This document shows, piece by piece, positions 5,906 to 56,239 of a stretch of 64,000 nt of DNA. Position 1 is the stretch's first letter, and each line of letters opens with the position of its first letter. Source of the stretch: Actinoallomurus bryophytorum (lineage in GTDB: Bacteria; Actinomycetota; Actinomycetes; Streptosporangiales; Streptosporangiaceae); NCBI RefSeq assembly GCF_006716425.1, contig NZ_VFOZ01000002.1, positions 124,001-188,000 of the forward strand, in the 5' to 3' direction. The translations under genes were made by a program, and so were the position numbers. The notes beneath the pieces are model-generated. The model saw only the letters and a list, made by a program, of their open reading frames with translations. It searched no databases and was not told the origin of the DNA.

Positions 5906-7774
5906 TCAGCGGGGGGCGACGGGCAGATGAAGGACGTTGCCTCCGGGCCGTAGCGTGACCTTCGTACCGGCCGGGTAGCGCAGCGTGTAGTCGTAGTCCG
6001 TGGAGATCACGACCACGCCCAGCCGGTGACCGGCCTTGAAGACGTAGTCGTTCGGCTGGAAGTCCCAGCGGAAGTCGTACGCCTTCCCCGCCTTGAGCGG
6101 CTCGGTGCGTGAGGGGTCGTGCCGGTTGCGCGCGTCCAGCCAGCCACGGGTCACGATCTTGAACGGCTGGGTCTCGGTCACGTGCGCCGTGCGGGTCGTG
6201 CAGCCCGAGTCGCCGGGAACGCTCTCGCCGTAACAGACCTGCTCCCCCGTGCTCGCCACGGCACCCGTCGGCCGGGTGTCGGTGCCGTAGTCGACGAGCA
6301 GCGCGGTCAGGTACGGCGAGCGGCCGTCCAGAGAGGCGCGCAGCGAGATCGTCGGCGTGCCGCCCACGCGCATGGGCTTCGTGAGCGCGGGCGTGAGGTA
6401 GACCAGCCGGTTCGGATCCGGCTGCGTCCAGTTGTCCGCGAGCTGCTCGGCGGTGCGGGTACGGCCCTCGTCGATGAGCGACTGCGGCGCGCCGTACCGC
6501 GCCTTCGTGCTCAGCTCACCCGAGGGGTTCAGATGCAGGTCGAGCGTGCGGGTCCCCGGCTCCGGCCAGTCCGAGTGCTGCTCCCACTGACCGGGAGCCC
6601 GCTCGATGTCGACGCGCGGCTCCTTCATGATTCCGTTCTGGATGCCGTACAGCCAGTAGTCGAACCAGTGGTGCGTCTGCCGCAGCCATTCCTCGACCCG
6701 CCAGCGGAACGGCGTGTTGTGGTTCGCCTGGTGCAGCCAGAGCTTGCGGGGCACGTTGTTGCGGGCAAGGGCGTTCCACCACTGCACCGACTGCTTGGTC
6801 TTGACGTTCCAGTCGTTCAGCCCGTGCACCACGAACACGGCCGCGCGGACCTTGGCTGCGTCCTGGACGTAGTTCCGCTCGTTCCAGAACCGGCTGTAGT
6901 CGCCGGTGTCGCGGTCCTGTCTCGCCTCGATGTCGTCGATGACCTTCTTGCAGATCTCGCGGTCGGCACGCGTGTAGACGTACTTCGCCAGGACGTCGAG
7001 GTCCTCGCCCTGGAATCCGCCGGGTGCGAGCACGCCGCCGTTCGCACGGTAGTAGTCGTACCAGGAGGAGATCCCCGCGATCGGCACGATCGCCTTGAGG
7101 CCCTTCACCCCGGTCGCCGCCGCCATGTTCGGCAGCGTCCCGTCATAGGACTGGCCGATCATGCCGACGTTCCCCGTGGACCAGGTCGCGGTGACCGGCG
7201 TGCCGTCCGGCGCCCAGCCGCGCGCCCGGCCGTTCAGCCAGTCGACGACGGCCTTGGCACCGGCCTGCTCGTTGCGGGCTCCGGAGGTCGGGCAGCCGGT
7301 GGAGCCGCCGGTGCCGAGGCTGTCGACGTCGGCGACGGCGTAGCCGCGCGGCAGGAAGTAGTTGTCGTAGTAGCCCGGGAAGGTGGCGGCCAGGGCGTCG
7401 TCCGGGCGGTTCTGGCGGGCGTTCCGTGCGCCCAGGGTGCTCACGTCGTCGATGTCGACGTCGTGGTTGGTGATGTCGTTGCCACCGGCCCAGTACGGGC
7501 TGGGCTCGACGATGGTGGGCACCCGGAGTCCCTGGTCGGTCTCCTTCGGGCGCATGATCCGCAGCTGCACCCGGTCCCGCGTTCCGTCCGAGTCGCTGTC
7601 GACGGGGACCTCGATGTTGACGGTCTGGGTGACCGCGTCGGCGCGGGAGAAGATCGGCTGCGTCTCGCCGCCGGTGACCTTGATCGCGGGTTTGTGATCG
7701 GCGTGGGCCGGTACGGCCGACCCGGTCACGATCGCGCCCGTGAGGGCGATCGCGCCGAGCATACGTCGTCGCAT
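5906..7774 (-). CDS. Secreted CocE/NonD-family Xaa-Pro dipeptidyl-peptidase
   Basis: A 622-residue secreted alpha/beta-hydrolase. A signal peptide (residues 1 to about 25, MRRRMLGAIALTGAIVTGSA, then VPAHA) precedes the catalytic domain. The nucleophile elbow is GQSYDG (Ser about 209), an Asp candidate is in HGLNDWNV (about 321), and a His candidate in LHQANH (349 or 352). The C-terminal third is the jelly-roll domain of the X-Pro dipeptidyl-peptidase C-terminal family. It probably trims proline-containing peptides or hydrolyses esters/amides outside the cell. Monocistronic, with an AT-richer promoter region at 7790-7860. Confidence 0.88.
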   Translation of the reverse strand: MRRRMLGAIALTGAIVTGSAVPAHADHKPAIKVTGGETQPIFSRADAVTQTVNIEVPVDSDSDGTRDRVQLRIMRPKETDQGLRVPTIVEPSPYWAGGNDITNHDVDIDDVSTLGARNARQNRPDDALAATFPGYYDNYFLPRGYAVADVDSLGTGGSTGCPTSGARNEQAGAKAVVDWLNGRARGWAPDGTPVTATWSTGNVGMIGQSYDGTLPNMAAATGVKGLKAIVPIAGISSWYDYYRANGGVLAPGGFQGEDLDVLAKYVYTRADREICKKVIDDIEARQDRDTGDYSRFWNERNYVQDAAKVRAAVFVVHGLNDWNVKTKQSVQWWNALARNNVPRKLWLHQANHNTPFRWRVEEWLRQTHHWFDYWLYGIQNGIMKEPRVDIERAPGQWEQHSDWPEPGTRTLDLHLNPSGELSTKARYGAPQSLIDEGRTRTAEQLADNWTQPDPNRLVYLTPALTKPMRVGGTPTISLRASLDGRSPYLTALLVDYGTDTRPTGAVASTGEQVCYGESVPGDSGCTTRTAHVTETQPFKIVTRGWLDARNRHDPSRTEPLKAGKAYDFRWDFQPNDYVFKAGHRLGVVVISTDYDYTLRYPAGTKVTLRPGGNVLHLPVAPR

Positions 7775-11526: not shown

Positions 11527-12390
11527 TCAGCCGGTGACCGTGCCGTCGTCGGGGTAGTCGGCTCCGAGGGTCACGTCACGCCACGCGTCGACGCCGCTCC
11601 TCAGGTTGTCGAGCCTGGCCGTGACCACGTCGAGCGCGGCCTTGCCCAGGAGCAGGCGCAGCGGGGGTTCGTCCGCCTGGACCGCGCCGATGATGGCCTG
11701 GGCGGCGCGTCCTGGGTCGCCGGGCTGGTTCCCGTAGGTGTCCATGGTGCTCTTCCGCCGGGCGCCCGCGGTCTCCGCGTAGTCCTCGATACGGGTCGCG
11801 GACTGGCGCATGGAAGGGCCGGACCAGTTGGTACGGAACGCCGCGGGCTCGACGATCGTCACCTTGATGCCCAGCGGCGCGACCTCCGCCGCGAGTGACT
11901 CCGACAGGCCCTCCACGGCGAACTTCGTGGCGTGGTAGTAGCCGGTGGCGCCGAAGGCGGCCAAGCCGCCGAGCGAGGAGATGTTCACGATGTGGCCGCT
12001 GCGCCTGGCGCGCATCCCCGGCAGCACGCTCCGGGTGACGTCGGCGAGGCCGAAGACGTTCGCGTCGAACAGGGCGCGGATCTCGTCGTCCTCGCCCTCT
12101 TCGACGGCGGCGAGGTATCCGTAGCCGGCGTTGTTGACCAGCACGTCGATCCGTCCGAAGGCGGCGTGGGCCGCCTTGACGGCCGCCGCGACCCGCGTGG
12201 CGTCGGTCACGTCGAGTGCGAGGGCCAGGGCGCGGTCCTCGTGACCCGCGACGATGTCGGCCACCTTCTCGGGATCGCGGGCGGTGACCACCGCTCGCCA
12301 GCCCCGTTCGAGGACCGCGGTGGCAAGGGCCCGGCCCAGTCCGGTGGAACAACCGGTGATGAACCAGACGGGTGCGTCGTTGACGGGCAT
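11527..12390 (-). CDS. SDR-family oxidoreductase
   Basis: A 287-residue classical short-chain dehydrogenase: GCSTGLGRA nucleotide site (residues about 13-21), NNAG motif, and the catalytic Ser with YYHATK (Tyr and Lys). The C-terminal length is typical of the oxidoreductase/SDR proteins commonly found next to XRE regulators in actinomycetes. It may be repressed by the XRE protein encoded upstream. Confidence 0.85.
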   Translation of the reverse strand: MPVNDAPVWFITGCSTGLGRALATAVLERGWRAVVTARDPEKVADIVAGHEDRALALALDVTDATRVAAAVKAAHAAFGRIDVLVNNAGYGYLAAVEEGEDDEIRALFDANVFGLADVTRSVLPGMRARRSGHIVNISSLGGLAAFGATGYYHATKFAVEGLSESLAAEVAPLGIKVTIVEPAAFRTNWSGPSMRQSATRIEDYAETAGARRKSTMDTYGNQPGDPGRAAQAIIGAVQADEPPLRLLLGKAALDVVTARLDNLRSGVDAWRDVTLGADYPDDGTVTG

Positions 12391-51800: not shown

Positions 51801-52338
51801 CGGTGGCGGCGCGTCGGTGGGCTTCGCGATGCTCGTCACCGCGCGGGCCTGCCAAGGCGTGTTCGGGGCGATGCTCCCCCCGGCCGCTCTCGCCCTGCTG
51901 AGCACGACGTTCAGCGACCCGAAGGAGGAGGGCAAGGCGTCCGGCGTGTTCGGGCGCCGGCGCCGGCAGCGCGGTCGGCCTGCTGCTCGGCGGGACACTG
52001 ACCGAGTACCTGTCGTGGCGCTGGTGCCTCTACATCAACCTGGTGTTCGCGGGGCTCGCCCTGGCCGGCGGCGCGGTGCTGCTCAAGCACCACCCGCGCC
52101 GGCCCGGCGCCCGCCTCGACTGGGGCGGCGTGGTCACCGTCTCCGGCGGCGTCTTCTGCCTGGTCTATGGGTTCTCCGGCGCGGCCATGAACTCATGGTC
52201 GACCGCCTCGACCTGGGGTCTCCTCGCCGCCGGGGTGGTGCTGCTGGTCATCTTCGCGGTGTGGCAGGGCCGTGCGGCCGACCCGCTGCTGCCGCGCCGA
52301 CTGCTCACCACTCAGGTCGAACCGCCTCGTCACCGCTA
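51800..52338 (+). pseudogene. Decayed MFS (DHA2-type) transporter gene, internal fragment with frameshift
   Basis: Homology begins around 51800 (VGFAMLVTARACQG, then GAMLPPAALALLST) and runs to about 51957 in one frame, then continues in the next from about 51959 (GAGSAVGLLLGGTL, WRWCLYINLVFAGL, DWGGVVTVSGG) to 52318. A one-base insertion (or two-base loss) within the GC-rich run at 51951-51966 accounts for the shift. Both the N-terminal and the C-terminal helices are missing. Confidence 0.7.
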
Positions 52339-52339
52339 G

Positions 52340-52460
52340 GGTGGCCACGAGGTCTCCGGATTACAGGTTCTTCTTGGTCGATGAACCCTCTACCGGAGAC
52401 CTCACTGCTTAGAGGCCACGACACACCGCCACACATCAGACTTCGAGACAGGCCCTAGCG
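52340..52460. mobile_element. Possible insertion-sequence remnant
   Basis: An 11-base inverted repeat, GAGGTCTCCGG (52349-52359) and its complement CCGGAGACCTC (52393-52403), is followed by CTTCGAGACAGGCCCTAG (52441-52458), which looks like the terminal repeat (GGGCCTGTCTCGAAG) of some actinobacterial IS5/IS4-type elements. GGCCACGA is directly repeated at 52342 and 52414. No transposase frame remains. Identity as an IS end is from memory and tentative. Confidence 0.4.
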
Positions 52461-52472
52461 TCTGAAATGCTT

Positions 52473-52514
52473 CGAATCACAGGTCGCGACATTGCCGTCG
52501 CGACCTGTGATTCG
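52473..52514 (-). terminator. 18-base-pair hairpin after precursor peptide A
   Basis: CGAATCACAGGTCGCGAC pairs perfectly with its complement around the loop ATTGCC (52491-52496). It follows the precursor A stop by 14 bases. A near-identical hairpin (same loop, compensated arm change) follows precursor B at 55216-55249. Confidence 0.8.
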
Positions 52515-52528
52515 CCTTACTCGTGCCC

Positions 52529-52597
52529 TTAGGCGTTGTCGCCGCAGAAACCTGTTGTTTCGAGCTTGTCCAGCTTGCGGATTTCGATTACGTCCAT
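52529..52597 (-). CDS. Putative RiPP precursor peptide A (22 residues)
   Basis: A 22-codon ORF too short for usual gene finding. The peptide opens with MDVIEIRKLDKLETTGFC and closes with GDNA. It is paralogous to precursor B: IEIRKLD, then (K/Q)(L/I)ETT(G/S)FC is shared, while the last four residues differ (GDNA against ATEM), as expected for a conserved leader and a variable core. GGAGAGG lies 10 bases before the ATG. It has its own promoter, is followed by a strong hairpin, and lies downstream of the M50/ThiF-like pair on the same strand. Function is inferred. Confidence 0.75.
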   Translation of the reverse strand: MDVIEIRKLDKLETTGFCGDNA

Positions 52598-52676
52598 TTT
52601 GACATATCCTCTCCAGGCCGGCGGGCCGCGGCGGTATTGCGAGTTTGCCATTACGTTGGCGGCCCTGGATTCAACT

Positions 52677-52722
52677 GATCATAAGTGATCGTAGATGCGC
52701 CTCAGAGTCTTGGCAATACCTT
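52677..52722 (-). promoter_or_regulatory. Promoter and palindrome of precursor A
   Basis: Read on the minus strand, TTGCCA (-35 type) and TACGAT (-10 type) are 17 bases apart. The -10 runs into GATCA-CTTA-TGATC (52677-52690), a likely operator. The same elements precede precursor B with an 18-base spacer. Confidence 0.65.
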
Positions 52723-52723
52723 C

Positions 52724-53992
52724 TCAGGAAGGACTCGTCCTGGTCATGCGGGTATGCGGTCCGGTCCGTCTAAACCATTGGCGGACGCGTTCACCGTGCC
52801 TGCGCCACCAGGCGGAAATCCAGACCACCTGGAATCCCGCCACAATGAGAATGACCACGGCCGCTTCCGCTGCCGCGCCCATGGATTCGGTGACCAGAAA
52901 AGTGTGAATGGAATCAGCGATCAACCTGATATAGGTCGGGATGGTTATGGCACTGACGACAAGCAGGCAAACGCTCGTGCCGAGGACGAGCAATACGGCA
53001 TAGCAGCGAACGGCCACTTGCTCATGCCTGGGGAGCCGCAGTATGGCGGGGCTTCCCGATTCGCCGCGTCGCCGTGTGAGGCGGGCGGCGACGTCACGAA
53101 CGTACGCGGATCCGTCCGCGTAGAGGTTCCGGCATCTCGCCAGATCCTGGAGGAGGAAGTACACGTCCGTTCGCATGAAGACGAGAAACTGCAGGGGAAG
53201 CATCGATGAGATCATCAGTACGATGATCGGCAGAGCCGATGGGGCGTCGATGCCCATGACCTGCAATGTCTTGATGGCAAGGATGGCGAGTGAGGCTATT
53301 GTGAGGTCGATCGCCATCCCCGCGCCGTAGACGGTGAATCGATGTCTCCGTGGCGCCGTCCAGATGCCGCTGACATCGGTCTGAGCGACAAGAAACTGCA
53401 GCCGAGTCCCCAGTCTGATGTGCGCCGGAACATCGGCGGCCCGTGCCGTGGCCAGGTGGCCCATCTCATGGACGAGGATGAGGGCCCATGCGACAAGGGC
53501 CTGGCTGAGCAGAATCAGACTCTCGTGGTCGGTCCAGAACATCTCTCGGTAACTCGGGAACACGCCCGGATCCCAGGCGATCACTCCGAGAGAGGCGATC
53601 ACCACCGTGGCCATCAGCGCGGCCAGGATCGGGCTGAGGGTCCAGCGGACGTGACGCGGTCGCAGCCAGGGAAGGGAGGGTTTCTGAGGAGGGGGTTGCC
53701 CGACATCATGATCGTCCACTGCGGCCACAAAGCCGAGGTCGACCAGCTGATTCACAAAAGCGACCACGTCAACGGACTGTTCGCTGCGCGACTCGATGTC
53801 CTGCCGGATGTCGTCGAGCGGTCGCCCATGCTGGATGCCCTCGATGACCTGCATGCCGATCTGCGGGATGGCGATGAAGGTCCCGGTCTCGGCCCGACCG
53901 ATGATCCACTCTTGCCCGTCCTGGCGAGAGCGGAGGGAGTGCAGGCGAACTGCCGAGTCATTCCTGGCGAGAGGCAACTCCGGCTGAGTCAT
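52724..53992 (-). CDS. PqqD-like domain / M50-type membrane metalloprotease
   Basis: A 422-residue protein. The N-terminal about 95 residues look like a PqqD/RRE winged-helix domain (TGTFIAIPQIGMQVIEGIQH, then VVAFVNQLVDLGFVA). The remainder has about six membrane segments with the zinc motif HEMGH (175-179) and a likely third ligand in RTDVYFLLQDL (Asp276), as in site-2-type M50 proteases fused to peptide-binding domains. It would cleave a modified peptide in or at the membrane, or help export it. Start 53992 is 1 base from the E1-like gene stop, without its own ribosome site, so translation is coupled. Confidence 0.85.
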   Translation of the reverse strand: MTQPELPLARNDSAVRLHSLRSRQDGQEWIIGRAETGTFIAIPQIGMQVIEGIQHGRPLDDIRQDIESRSEQSVDVVAFVNQLVDLGFVAAVDDHDVGQPPPQKPSLPWLRPRHVRWTLSPILAALMATVVIASLGVIAWDPGVFPSYREMFWTDHESLILLSQALVAWALILVHEMGHLATARAADVPAHIRLGTRLQFLVAQTDVSGIWTAPRRHRFTVYGAGMAIDLTIASLAILAIKTLQVMGIDAPSALPIIVLMISSMLPLQFLVFMRTDVYFLLQDLARCRNLYADGSAYVRDVAARLTRRRGESGSPAILRLPRHEQVAVRCYAVLLVLGTSVCLLVVSAITIPTYIRLIADSIHTFLVTESMGAAAEAAVVILIVAGFQVVWISAWWRRHGERVRQWFRRTGPHTRMTRTSPS

Positions 53993-53993
53993 T

Positions 53994-55130
53994 CTAGGTC
54001 GTCCCGCAGGCGGGACAGCCGGGTTGGCGAGGGTGAGAGACGAGTACGGGGTCGGTCAACGCGACCAGATTCATGCCGTAGACACGTCCGGCCGGCAGGG
54101 CCGGCACCCCTGTGAGCAGGGAGATGGCCGCGTGTGTCATGAGGAGGCCCGCCATCCCGGCCGAGGCCGCCGTCACCGGATGCCCGGGTGTCTGCGTGCC
54201 GAAAGACGACTCGTCTTCCGGTCTGAAGATCGACATTTCCGGTCGGCGCGCCTCTGCGAGCTTCAGACATTCCCAGCAAGCACCGTCGCCCGGCTTGAAG
54301 ACGCCCACCGTCAGTAGTGCGCCGTGATATCCACCGCCGACCCACGGAACGTTCTTGGCCAGACAGGCACGGTTGGCCCAGGTGCGAATGATCTCCGGTC
54401 GGTCGGCGGCCAGGACGAGCACGTCGCAGTCTTCCGCCAGAGCCTCCAGGTCGGCCTGGCCGCGCACGGTGCTTCGCTCGCCTGTGATCTTGATATCTGA
54501 GTTCAACCGGCCCAGTCGGGCGACCGCGACATCCACCTTCGGCTTGCCGAGGTCATCCTCGTTATAAAGAACCTGCCGGTTGAGGTTCGACAACTCCACG
54601 ATGTCGGAGTCGACGCAGTGCAGATGCCCCACTCCGGTCGCGGCCAGACCCTGAGCCGCCGCGCCCCCGGCACCACCGACACCGACCACCACCACGCGCG
54701 CGTCGCGGAGCCTCAACTGCACGTCCCAGGAGCCTTTCCGGGGCAGCGTGTCCACCCATCGGAAGTAGGCGTGACCGCGGCCGTAGCGCTCCCGTTCACG
54801 CGGGGAGAGCGTCTCGGGTTCCAGGCTGTTCGCGTCTTCGAGATGTCCCGCTTGGAACAAGGACTCGATCGTGTCCATGATCTGCGGCGCCGTGACCGGT
54901 GGCCGCTCGCCCGAGGACATCAATTCGACGATCTGCGGGATGGTGCGAGAGCCGTTCATGGCCTCAAGGAGTTCCCAGATCCGGCCTGAGGGGTCCTTGA
55001 TCTCTGCCGCTATACCGAAGAGCCCGCGTCCCAAGCGTATGTGGCCGTCAATCGTTCTGTACGGTTGATGTTCGGGCTTTACTCGAGGAAGGTGGGGCAA
55101 TGAGCGGACCCTGTCCTCGTCTGTCTGCAT
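53994..55130 (-). CDS. E1/ThiF-like adenylyltransferase with N-terminal RRE-like domain (MccB-type architecture)
   Basis: A 378-residue enzyme. Residues about 22-100 (TIDGHIRLGRGLFGIAAEI, then SRTIPQIVELM and IESLFQAGHLED) resemble the winged-helix RRE/PqqD fold that binds leader peptides. From about 118 follows the ThiF/MoeB/E1 fold: GVGGAGG (150-156), DSDIVELSNLNRQ with Arg185, GKPK (195-198), and a zinc site CWEC (285-288) with CPAC (372-375). The layout resembles MccB of microcin C, which adenylates a peptide C-terminus. ATG 55130 is used; an ATG at 55199 would add a poorly conserved 23-residue extension. No ribosome site is clear. Confidence 0.85.
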   Translation of the reverse strand: MQTDEDRVRSLPHLPRVKPEHQPYRTIDGHIRLGRGLFGIAAEIKDPSGRIWELLEAMNGSRTIPQIVELMSSGERPPVTAPQIMDTIESLFQAGHLEDANSLEPETLSPRERERYGRGHAYFRWVDTLPRKGSWDVQLRLRDARVVVVGVGGAGGAAAQGLAATGVGHLHCVDSDIVELSNLNRQVLYNEDDLGKPKVDVAVARLGRLNSDIKITGERSTVRGQADLEALAEDCDVLVLAADRPEIIRTWANRACLAKNVPWVGGGYHGALLTVGVFKPGDGACWECLKLAEARRPEMSIFRPEDESSFGTQTPGHPVTAASAGMAGLLMTHAAISLLTGVPALPAGRVYGMNLVALTDPVLVSHPRQPGCPACGTT

Positions 55131-55215
55131 CAAAGGCGCACACCAGATCTGTCGAGCGGATGACTCAATGAAAAGCCCCAGTGATTGAACATCGAGCATC
55201 CGAAGATTTTCGAAG

Positions 55216-55249
55216 TCACGGGTCGCGACATTGCCGTCGCGACCCGTGA
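55216..55249 (-). terminator. 14-base-pair hairpin after precursor peptide B
   Basis: TCACGGGTCGCGAC pairs with its complement around the same ATTGCC loop as the copy A hairpin. Relative to copy A an A:T pair is replaced by G:C in the arm, on both sides, which supports a selected structure. It lies between precursor B and the E1-like gene and may attenuate read-through. Confidence 0.78.
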
Positions 55250-55267
55250 TCTAAACCTGCTCGTGCG

Positions 55268-55333
55268 TCACATTTCGGTGGCGCAGAAACTCGTCGTCTC
55301 GATCTGGTCCAGCTTACGGATTTCGATGTCCAT
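55268..55333 (-). CDS. Putative RiPP precursor peptide B (21 residues)
   Basis: A 21-codon ORF. The peptide opens with MDIEIRKLDQIETTSFC and closes with ATEM; it aligns with precursor A after one gap and shares the IEIRKLD...ETT.FC leader-like part. The ATG at 55333 is chosen because it aligns with precursor A and follows GAGAGG by 9 bases; an upstream ATG at 55342 would add MVR. A conserved Cys18/17 and Thr-Thr-Ser/Gly offer modification sites. First gene in the cassette upstream of the E1-like gene. Confidence 0.75.
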   Translation of the reverse strand: MDIEIRKLDQIETTSFCATEM

Positions 55334-55419
55334 CCTGACCATCCTCTCTAGGCCGGCGATCCATGGCGTTTCGGCATCGTCGCAGTTGGCCGTTACGCCG
55401 GCCAGCCATCGATCTGACT

Positions 55420-55466
55420 GATCATGGGTGATCGTAGACGGGCCCCCAGAGCCTTGGCAATACCTT
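55420..55466 (-). promoter_or_regulatory. Promoter and palindrome of precursor B
   Basis: On the minus strand, TTGCCA and TACGAT are 18 bases apart, and GATCA-CCCA-TGATC (55420-55433) overlaps the -10 end. CTTGGCAATACCTT (55453-55466) is identical in copy A. Confidence 0.65.
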
Positions 55467-55657
55467 CGTCACGGAGTGCTGGGACCTTATGCCGCCGACA
55501 TTATATTTTCTGTAAGCGGCCTCCCCCGTAGGCGAATCATTGCTGGCAGTTCGCTGGAAGCCTCCGATCGGAAATTAATCCACCCCGCCGGCCGGGCGCG
55601 GGAATTCGGGGCGCCCGCGCCGCGACGACCAGGACGGCCGGACAGAACGGACGCTCG

Positions 55658-56239
55658 TCACTGGCCCATACGTCCGTCGATCCGCTCGCGCAACAGGTCG
55701 GCGTGGCCCATGTGACGGGCGTACTCCTCGATCAGTCCGACCAGCACCACGCGCAGCGACATCGGCCCTCCCCCGCTGCCATGCAGATTCAATGGATCGT
55801 CGCCGGTGATGTCGAGACTGCGCGCCTCGGCGACGAACCGTGTCGCGAAGTCCACCTCCGTACGCCACGCGTCCCAAGCCTCCGCGACCACCTGGGGATC
55901 GGCGACCGCGCCATCGAAGTCACCGTCGCGATCGGTGTCGGAGCAGAACAGCCGGGGCACGTCCTGTCCCGACATCAGCACCCGGAACGTCGCCCGCTCC
56001 ACCTCGGCCAGGTGCCGCACCAGCCCAAGGAGCGACATCGTCGACGGCTCGACGGAGCGCCGCGCCATGGCCTCCGCGTCGAGACCCGCGCATTTCATCT
56101 CCAGCGTGAGGCGCTGACAGCGCAGGGATTCGACCAGCGTGGTGCGCTCGTCCCCCAGCGTCGGTCCGTTCTCACGCGCATCGTCGTCAGACGGCGTGCC
56201 GTCCGCGGTGAACATGTCGGCTCGCCGGGTCGTGGCCAT
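55658..56239 (-). CDS. DinB/DUF664-family protein
   Basis: A 193-residue DinB-like four-helix protein of the DUF664 group, with the opening RTTLVESLRCQRLTLEMKCA, LVRHLAEVERATFRV and the C-terminal EEYARHMGHADLLRERIDG carrying the conserved His residues (metal-binding triad). Such proteins may use a low-molecular-weight thiol (bacillithiol or mycothiol). The ATG at 56239 (MATTRRAD) is preferred over 56251; no clear ribosome site. Confidence 0.82.
   Translation of the reverse strand: MATTRRADMFTADGTPSDDDARENGPTLGDERTTLVESLRCQRLTLEMKCAGLDAEAMARRSVEPSTMSLLGLVRHLAEVERATFRVLMSGQDVPRLFCSDTDRDGDFDGAVADPQVVAEAWDAWRTEVDFATRFVAEARSLDITGDDPLNLHGSGGGPMSLRVVLVGLIEEYARHMGHADLLRERIDGRMGQ

Follow-up and report, generated by a model that had tools for sequence, protein, structure and literature searches.

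The 64,000-nucleotide stretch of Actinoallomurus bryophytorum DNA considered here (contig NZ_VFOZ01000002.1, positions 124,001 to 188,000; hereafter the window) carries, between its positions 52,473 and 55,466, a locus that very probably constitutes a compact pathway for a ribosomally synthesized and post-translationally modified peptide (RiPP). In order of transcription on the minus strand, it consists of a tiny precursor gene (A), a gene for an adenylyltransferase in which a RiPP recognition element (RRE) is fused to a ThiF/E1 domain (E1), a gene for an RRE-bearing M50 membrane zinc protease (the M50 protein) and a second, paralogous precursor gene (B). The precursor family is genuine: its short members share a conserved leader, and in many genomes they are found alongside, and co-vary with, the RRE-E1 enzyme and the RRE-M50 protease.

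A first-pass annotation of this DNA had described two short minus-strand open reading frames (ORFs), both of which are present with the peptides it gave, and had staked its proposal on their conservation beside homologous E1 and M50 genes. This conservation is found. Among 43 distinct loci fetched by E1 or M50 homology (45 including the window, minus two duplicates; mostly the stronger matches), the M50 gene adjoins E1 in 35, and a precursor of the same type is likewise found in 35, namely in 32 of the 35 loci with both enzymes and in three of the eight with E1 only; one regular-expression match in locus L089 was judged spurious and excluded. No precursor was recognised in L108 to L110 despite the presence of M50; the E1 enzymes of these loci are among the most distant, and L108 and L110 contain short ORFs loosely similar to the precursor. 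In the copy of the locus found in Actinomadura sp. DC4, precursor A differs by three synonymous and no amino-acid changes, and no second precursor unit aligned there.

Genome surveys gave a concordant picture. A profile of 28 precursor rows matches the 9.47-Mb genome containing the window at A and B only. Among 394 class-level genomes, the precursor (E <= 1e-4) occurs in 13 and E1 (E <= 1e-70) in 13, with both in 12, the E1 count coming from a separate search of the same group, of the same size, whose listed genomes coincide; the exceptions are G249, with E1 alone, and G208, with the precursor alone. Among 341 family-level genomes, the precursor was detected in 83 and E1 (E <= 1e-60, with five scored candidates for each genome in the rows listed) in 98, with both in 75, the precursor only in eight and E1 only in 23, a co-occurrence with a Fisher p of 5e-45 when relatedness is ignored. 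In seven of the eight precursor-only genomes a more diverged E1 adjoins the precursor.

The two genes are also physically linked. Precursor sites lie within 3 kb of E1 in 101 of 128 cases, all on the same strand as E1; outside this set, the precursor occupies the strand opposite to E1 in L005, L006, L080 and L146. The other 27 sites comprise 16 beside a diverged, contig-edge or fragmentary E1, eight beside a DUF6879 gene, two adjoining M50 only and one with none of E1, DUF6879 and M50. At two profile-match sites, L188 and L192, no peptide could be recovered. Conversely, 37 family-level E1 sites had no profile match. Twenty of these were looked at singly, and no precursor was found at six (L203, L212, L214, L087, L088 and L089); a diverged precursor, in some cases a weak one (E up to 0.06), is present at 13 of 16 freshly fetched E1 sites without a profile match, and L005 has a precursor with QTT.

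The sequences of the peptides are informative in themselves. Aligned on a conserved Glu, the 79 distinct precursors collected from all loci usually take the form [IL]x[IV]RxL[DE]xxETT followed by a short tail. In the leader, Ile or Leu stands at -9 in 75, Ile or Val at -7 in 77, and Arg or Lys at -6, Leu or Val at -4 and Asp or Glu at -3 in all 79. The Glu is present in 77; the remaining two have Gln (L005) and Asp, the Asp arising from a KLDKLDKLECT repeat aligned out of register. Thr occupies +1 in 73 and +2 in 68, and 8 to 13 residues follow the Glu in 77. The tail is variable except at +5, where Ser or Cys is found in 50 precursors and Arg in 11; both window precursors have Cys there (ETTSFC in A and ETTGFC in B). 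With 78 rows grouped into 47 clusters, the slipped row being left out, Ser or Cys at +5 characterizes 27 clusters against 11.6 for random tail positions, and none of 20000 trials reached as high a value. Up to four precursors accompany one E1. In ten multi-precursor loci, among which two pairs are near-copies, Ser, Thr or Cys stands at +5 in 21 of 24 precursors (7.6 expected), and the last residue agrees in only one of 19 within-locus pairs, the window tails ending in ATEM and GDNA.

On an E1 tree of 76 rows, the Arg-at-+5 type and a type ending in NSNSC each need one change (SH-aLRT, an approximate likelihood-ratio test, 99), and enzyme and peptide therefore co-vary; the tree was built by a quick method, has several long branches and includes some rows fetched through a precursor match. 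The Arg clade comprises the E1 enzymes of L091, L092, L105, L106, L111, L150, L209 and L210. L107, L175-L180, L183-L187, L189, L193 and L198, which represent at least five genera, have a near-constant precursor, mostly M(T/K)IEIKKVEEVETTGNSNSC, with a C-terminal Cys, next to a diverged E1 that M50 accompanies in most cases; this precursor differs in this constancy from the other precursors with their variable tails.

The enzymes have the features expected of such a pathway. Residues R185, K198 and D243 of E1, the conserved Arg, Lys and Asp of its adenylation domain, are invariant in 76 of 76 aligned rows. The N-terminal domains of both proteins, which the first-pass annotation had taken to be RRE-like, are so by fold, and that of E1 by sequence as well: PaaA heads the solved-structure sequences matching E1, and its RRE half aligns. 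E1 scores 11.5 bits against the PaaA-like N-terminal domain model PF21475 (cut-off 27), although the solved PaaA does match E1. In the M50 domain, HExxH is present in seven of seven aligned proteins and reads HEMGH in the window, as had been noted. The M50 protein falls below the Pfam cut-offs for PqqD (15 against 23.4) and M50 (22.1 against 27.2), and it scores 19.4 bits against the daptide protease model NF041824, whose cut-off is 300. Judging from its homologues, E1 probably starts at 55130 (M24) and not at 55199: the DC4 copy, 92% identical, has no intact reading frame ahead of M24, and in the other named close homologues (L004-L008) the alignment begins only at residue 28-38. In L004, a second E1 match covering residues 150-400 only lies at 11531-12292, between E1 and M50, with three precursors around.

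The reaction sequence that we favour would run as follows. Both RREs would bind the leader strand IxIRxLD, and E1 would adenylate the nearly invariant Glu after it at the carboxylate of its side chain. Ser, Thr or Cys at +5 (Cys in the window) would then attack the activated Glu to form a small (thio)lactone ring, as is reported for GrcB, after which the M50 protease would cut off the leader at the membrane and may assist export. The two paralogous precursors, probably on separate transcripts, would give two products from one enzyme pair, with cores near ETTSFCATEM (A) and ETTGFCGDNA (B). We put the whole predicted chain, from Glu side-chain activation through ring closure to leader removal, a little short of an even chance. 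Activation of Glu has precedents in PaaA and GrcB, and for GrcB a ring between Glu35 and Cys39 is reported in the review PMC12250964 (this and the other articles cited by accession are drawn on for part of their text).

The main alternative is that E1 instead adenylates the C-terminal carboxylate; the acyl-AMP would then be turned into a conjugate with a nucleotide, an amide, an imide or a macrocycle, and ETT would serve as the cut site. Of the five RRE-ThiF enzymes named as characterised, three (MccB, EnfB and IndF) act at the C-terminus (PMC12150305, PMC12250964). A peptidase homologue frees the IndA core EDTTNWYFI, which resembles ETT plus tail here (PMC12150305), and ETT may thus be a site of cleavage. 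Against such a course, one E1 serves unrelated C-termini, and the Ser/Thr/Cys pattern at +5 would be left unexplained. Because C-termini diverge within loci, activation of Glu is preferred, and activation of the C-terminus appears doubtful to us. A second alternative starts from the same activated Glu, which the next backbone amide would attack, as in pantocin A biosynthesis by PaaA, to give a glutarimide-like or bicyclic unit at ETT, the tail being a discarded follower peptide. The kinship of E1 with PaaA and the retention of Thr at +1 are consistent with it, and Glu16 of the PaaA substrate PaaP lies about five residues after the leader motif FxxLxxRI, a similar spacing (PMC12250964). Yet PaaP has Glu16-Glu17-Asn18 (PMC12250964), whereas none of the 79 rows has Glu after Glu; Pro at +1 (EPT in L207 and L208) has no amide NH for the attack; and the pattern at +5 would again find no explanation. 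We consider this course unlikely.

Several observations weigh against the Glu-to-+5 ring or temper the breadth of the evidence. L005, from the same genus, has QTT in place of ETT. Arg at +5 in 11 of 78 precursors has no explanation in the ring model, and a further 17 precursors, in many of which Ser or Cys stands one or two positions further along, belong to none of the three types. The +5 Ser often lies within a conserved SNSxGN block, so conservation may act on the block and not on a nucleophile. Ten of the 11 distinct tails of the Arg type end in Gly and all six of the NSNSC type in Cys, a constancy that fits C-terminal activation, as does the Asn that ends 24 of the 79 precursors. The review PMC12250964, in the text drawn on here, words the GrcB target both as the C-terminal carboxylate and as an internal Glu side chain; the Glu35 side chain seems the consistent reading, since GrcA is 39 residues long with Cys39. 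A Foldseek search with the M50 model returned no match at E <= 0.001 (best 0.047). No precursor was found at the E1 loci L087-L090, L109, L112, L203, L212 and L214, and related rows and loci (the near-copies L075/L076 and L007/L008) make the counts overstate independence.

The arrangement of the locus is summarized below. The A and B units are a duplication, their upstream blocks, ORFs and a 35-nt hairpin aligning at 78-94%. Only two promoter-like sites occur within 52400-55700, one before each precursor (mean of 0.6 in shuffles), and none of 200 shuffles was as stable as either stem-loop. Since a promoter-like site precedes and a stable stem-loop follows each precursor, each is probably transcribed separately as a short RNA, part of the transcription from A continuing into E1. 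The stem-loop after A, retained in the DC4 copy with wobble changes, is possibly a terminator or attenuator ahead of E1; neither stem-loop is followed by a T run, and that of A was not called in a terminator scan. One base separates the E1 stop codon from the M50 ATG, in agreement with the translational coupling first proposed.

Features of the locus, with positions counted from the first letter of the window
Feature	Position	Strand	Remarks
Promoter-like site before precursor A: TTGCCA, 18-nt spacer, TACGAT	55431..55460	-	both hexamers also present in DC4 copy
Precursor A, MDIEIRKLDQIETTSFCATEM, 21 aa (21 codons)	55268..55333	-	profile match E 3.6e-8
Stem-loop 3' of precursor A: 14 perfect pairs, 6-nt loop	55216..55249	-	-30.4 kcal/mol, z -6.9
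RRE-E1 (ThiF/MccB/PaaA-like) adenylyltransferase, 378 aa from probable start M24	53994..55130	-	longest ORF starts 55199
RRE (PqqD-like)-M50 membrane zinc protease, 422 aa	52724..53992	-	
Promoter-like site before precursor B: TTGCCA, 17-nt spacer, TACGAT	52688..52716	-	
Precursor B, MDVIEIRKLDKLETTGFCGDNA, 22 aa (22 codons)	52529..52597	-	profile match E 1.1e-9
Stem-loop 3' of precursor B: 18 perfect pairs, 6-nt loop	52473..52514	-	-36.5 kcal/mol, z -10.8

Adjoining precursor B, a plus-strand ORF at 51817-52458 has a weak major facilitator superfamily match (22.8 bits, below the cut-off). Two incomplete copies of the segment 52320-52450 lie at other places in the genome, matching at 85% over 67 nt and at 73% over about 100 nt; the segment may be what is left of a mobile element.

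Within one section of the E1 tree, the precursor has a DUF6879 (PF21806) gene in its vicinity. The DUF6879 gene accompanies E1-linked precursors in L075, L076, L077, L079, L083-L086 and L100-L102, and precursors away from E1 in L143-L145, L181, L182, L190, L195 and L197; a role in immunity, as a receptor or in tailoring is possible. Such loci bear on a further explanation, in which the peptide is not secreted: E1 would modify it as a carrier or a regulatory tag, and its small tail would be an intracellular signal, for example with DUF6879 where that is present. All eight genomes in which precursor and DUF6879 stand together without a nearby E1 encode an E1 elsewhere, and there is no constant exporter, because only E1, M50 and DUF6879 recur in more than six loci by a crude clustering of neighbours. 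However, a membrane protease adjoins E1 in most fetched loci, and tails that differ between co-located paralogues fit products better than carriers, which makes a non-secreted peptide very improbable. In G208, which is without a close E1 match, a precursor with the tail ETTGDSNSQGA lies directly upstream of a gene resembling an M14 zinc carboxypeptidase by eye (L142, about 5924-7253).

RRE-ThiF fusions have been mined globally, yielding 27,400 candidates (PMC12150305), and the five named as characterised serve microcin C (MccB), pantocin A (PaaA), GRC (GrcB), enterofaecin (EnfB) and ind (IndF). The present enzymes share with them the fusion itself, the ATP-site Arg, Lys and Asp and an adjacent short gene for a leader-bearing precursor, which is conserved here; they differ in having a new precursor family, an actinobacterial clade, an RRE-M50 partner and variable C-termini within one locus. 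The enterofaecin EnfA leader has (V/I)RKA (PMC12250964), against (I/V)R(K/R)LD here. Microcin C precursors are mostly 7 aa with a C-terminal Asn, whereas those of the window are 21 aa with a final Met (A) and 22 aa with a final Ala (B); the initial view that this is not a plain microcin C system holds, with the caveat of the Asn-ended relatives mentioned above. The Glu-Glu-Asn core of pantocin A contrasts with ETTSFC and ETTGFC. The GRC cluster contains radical S-adenosylmethionine (SAM) enzymes, whereas the corresponding model (PF04055) has no match inside the window; nor have YcaO (PF02624) and Lant_dehydr_N (PF04738), so that the reported lack of radical-SAM, YcaO and LanB-type partners was borne out. 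A YcaO pathway with E1 as docking protein only was rejected, as PF02624 matches nowhere in the genome assembly searched. On the same contig, at 203894-205789, about 16 kb past the window end and about 25 kb from E1, PF04738 reveals a lanthipeptide dehydratase domain (614 bits). In L106, a YcaO-like domain recognised by eye lies after the E1/M50 pair, about 2.3-4.1 kb downstream of the E1 match start, perhaps in a hybrid pathway.

The protease also has relatives in known systems. RRE-site-2-protease fusions led to the daptides, which resemble the present system in an RRE-M50 fusion beside multiple short precursors in Actinomycetota (PMC10036551); their motif ELExMEAP and C-terminal Thr are not in A or B, and no aminotransferase or methyltransferase was found among the 10 neighbouring ORFs scanned at the window locus. 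M50 membrane proteases process epipeptides (EpeP) and the 3-thia-amino-acid pearlins (TglG/TmoG) (PMC10885120), in company with other modifying enzymes and compared here by description only. A Glu to Ser/Thr ring of the kind we propose would resemble the side-chain ester rings of graspetides. Graspetides, however, are made by ATP-grasp ligases and not by E1 enzymes.

No curated family or paper was found for the precursor family within the searches made, and motif strings such as LDKIETT, as well as DUF6879, are absent from the literature searched. The initial description of the system as undescribed stands for the RRE-ThiF plus RRE-M50 combination and for the precursor family, which appear undescribed within that literature, including the parts drawn on of the RRE-Finder papers (PMC7470986, PMC12710340); it does not extend to RRE-ThiF (PMC12150305) and RRE-site-2-protease fusions (PMC10036551), each of which is known. 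A and B match no Pfam model, and neither they nor seven relatives match any NCBIfam model. In three annotated plasmid records (L147-L149), E1 is annotated as a ThiF family adenylyltransferase and M50 as a hypothetical or site-2 protease protein, and the precursors carry no gene in the PLSDB gene table, which is incomplete. Because the precursors are missing from these tables and match no Pfam or NCBIfam model, genome annotation probably misses the pathway.

RRE-ThiF enzymes are chemically diverse and few have a known product, five being named in the available text of PMC12150305 and PMC12250964. The present family offers a genetically minimal case, with precursor, E1 and protease, and 79 distinct precursor tails; two diverged precursor types follow the E1 tree. 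Substrate rules and nucleophile choice become directly testable. It is possible, although we would lean against it, that these loci represent a distinct and widespread actinobacterial RiPP class in which E1 builds Glu-to-Ser/Thr/Cys (thio)lactones, one enzyme accepting varied C-termini, with an Arg-swapped clade. If so, it would be an E1 counterpart of the graspetides, and the Arg clade would suggest that this one fold can also carry out another ring chemistry. Recurring as it does in many related bacteria, the system appears to be a family of enzymatically modified peptides that has been overlooked.

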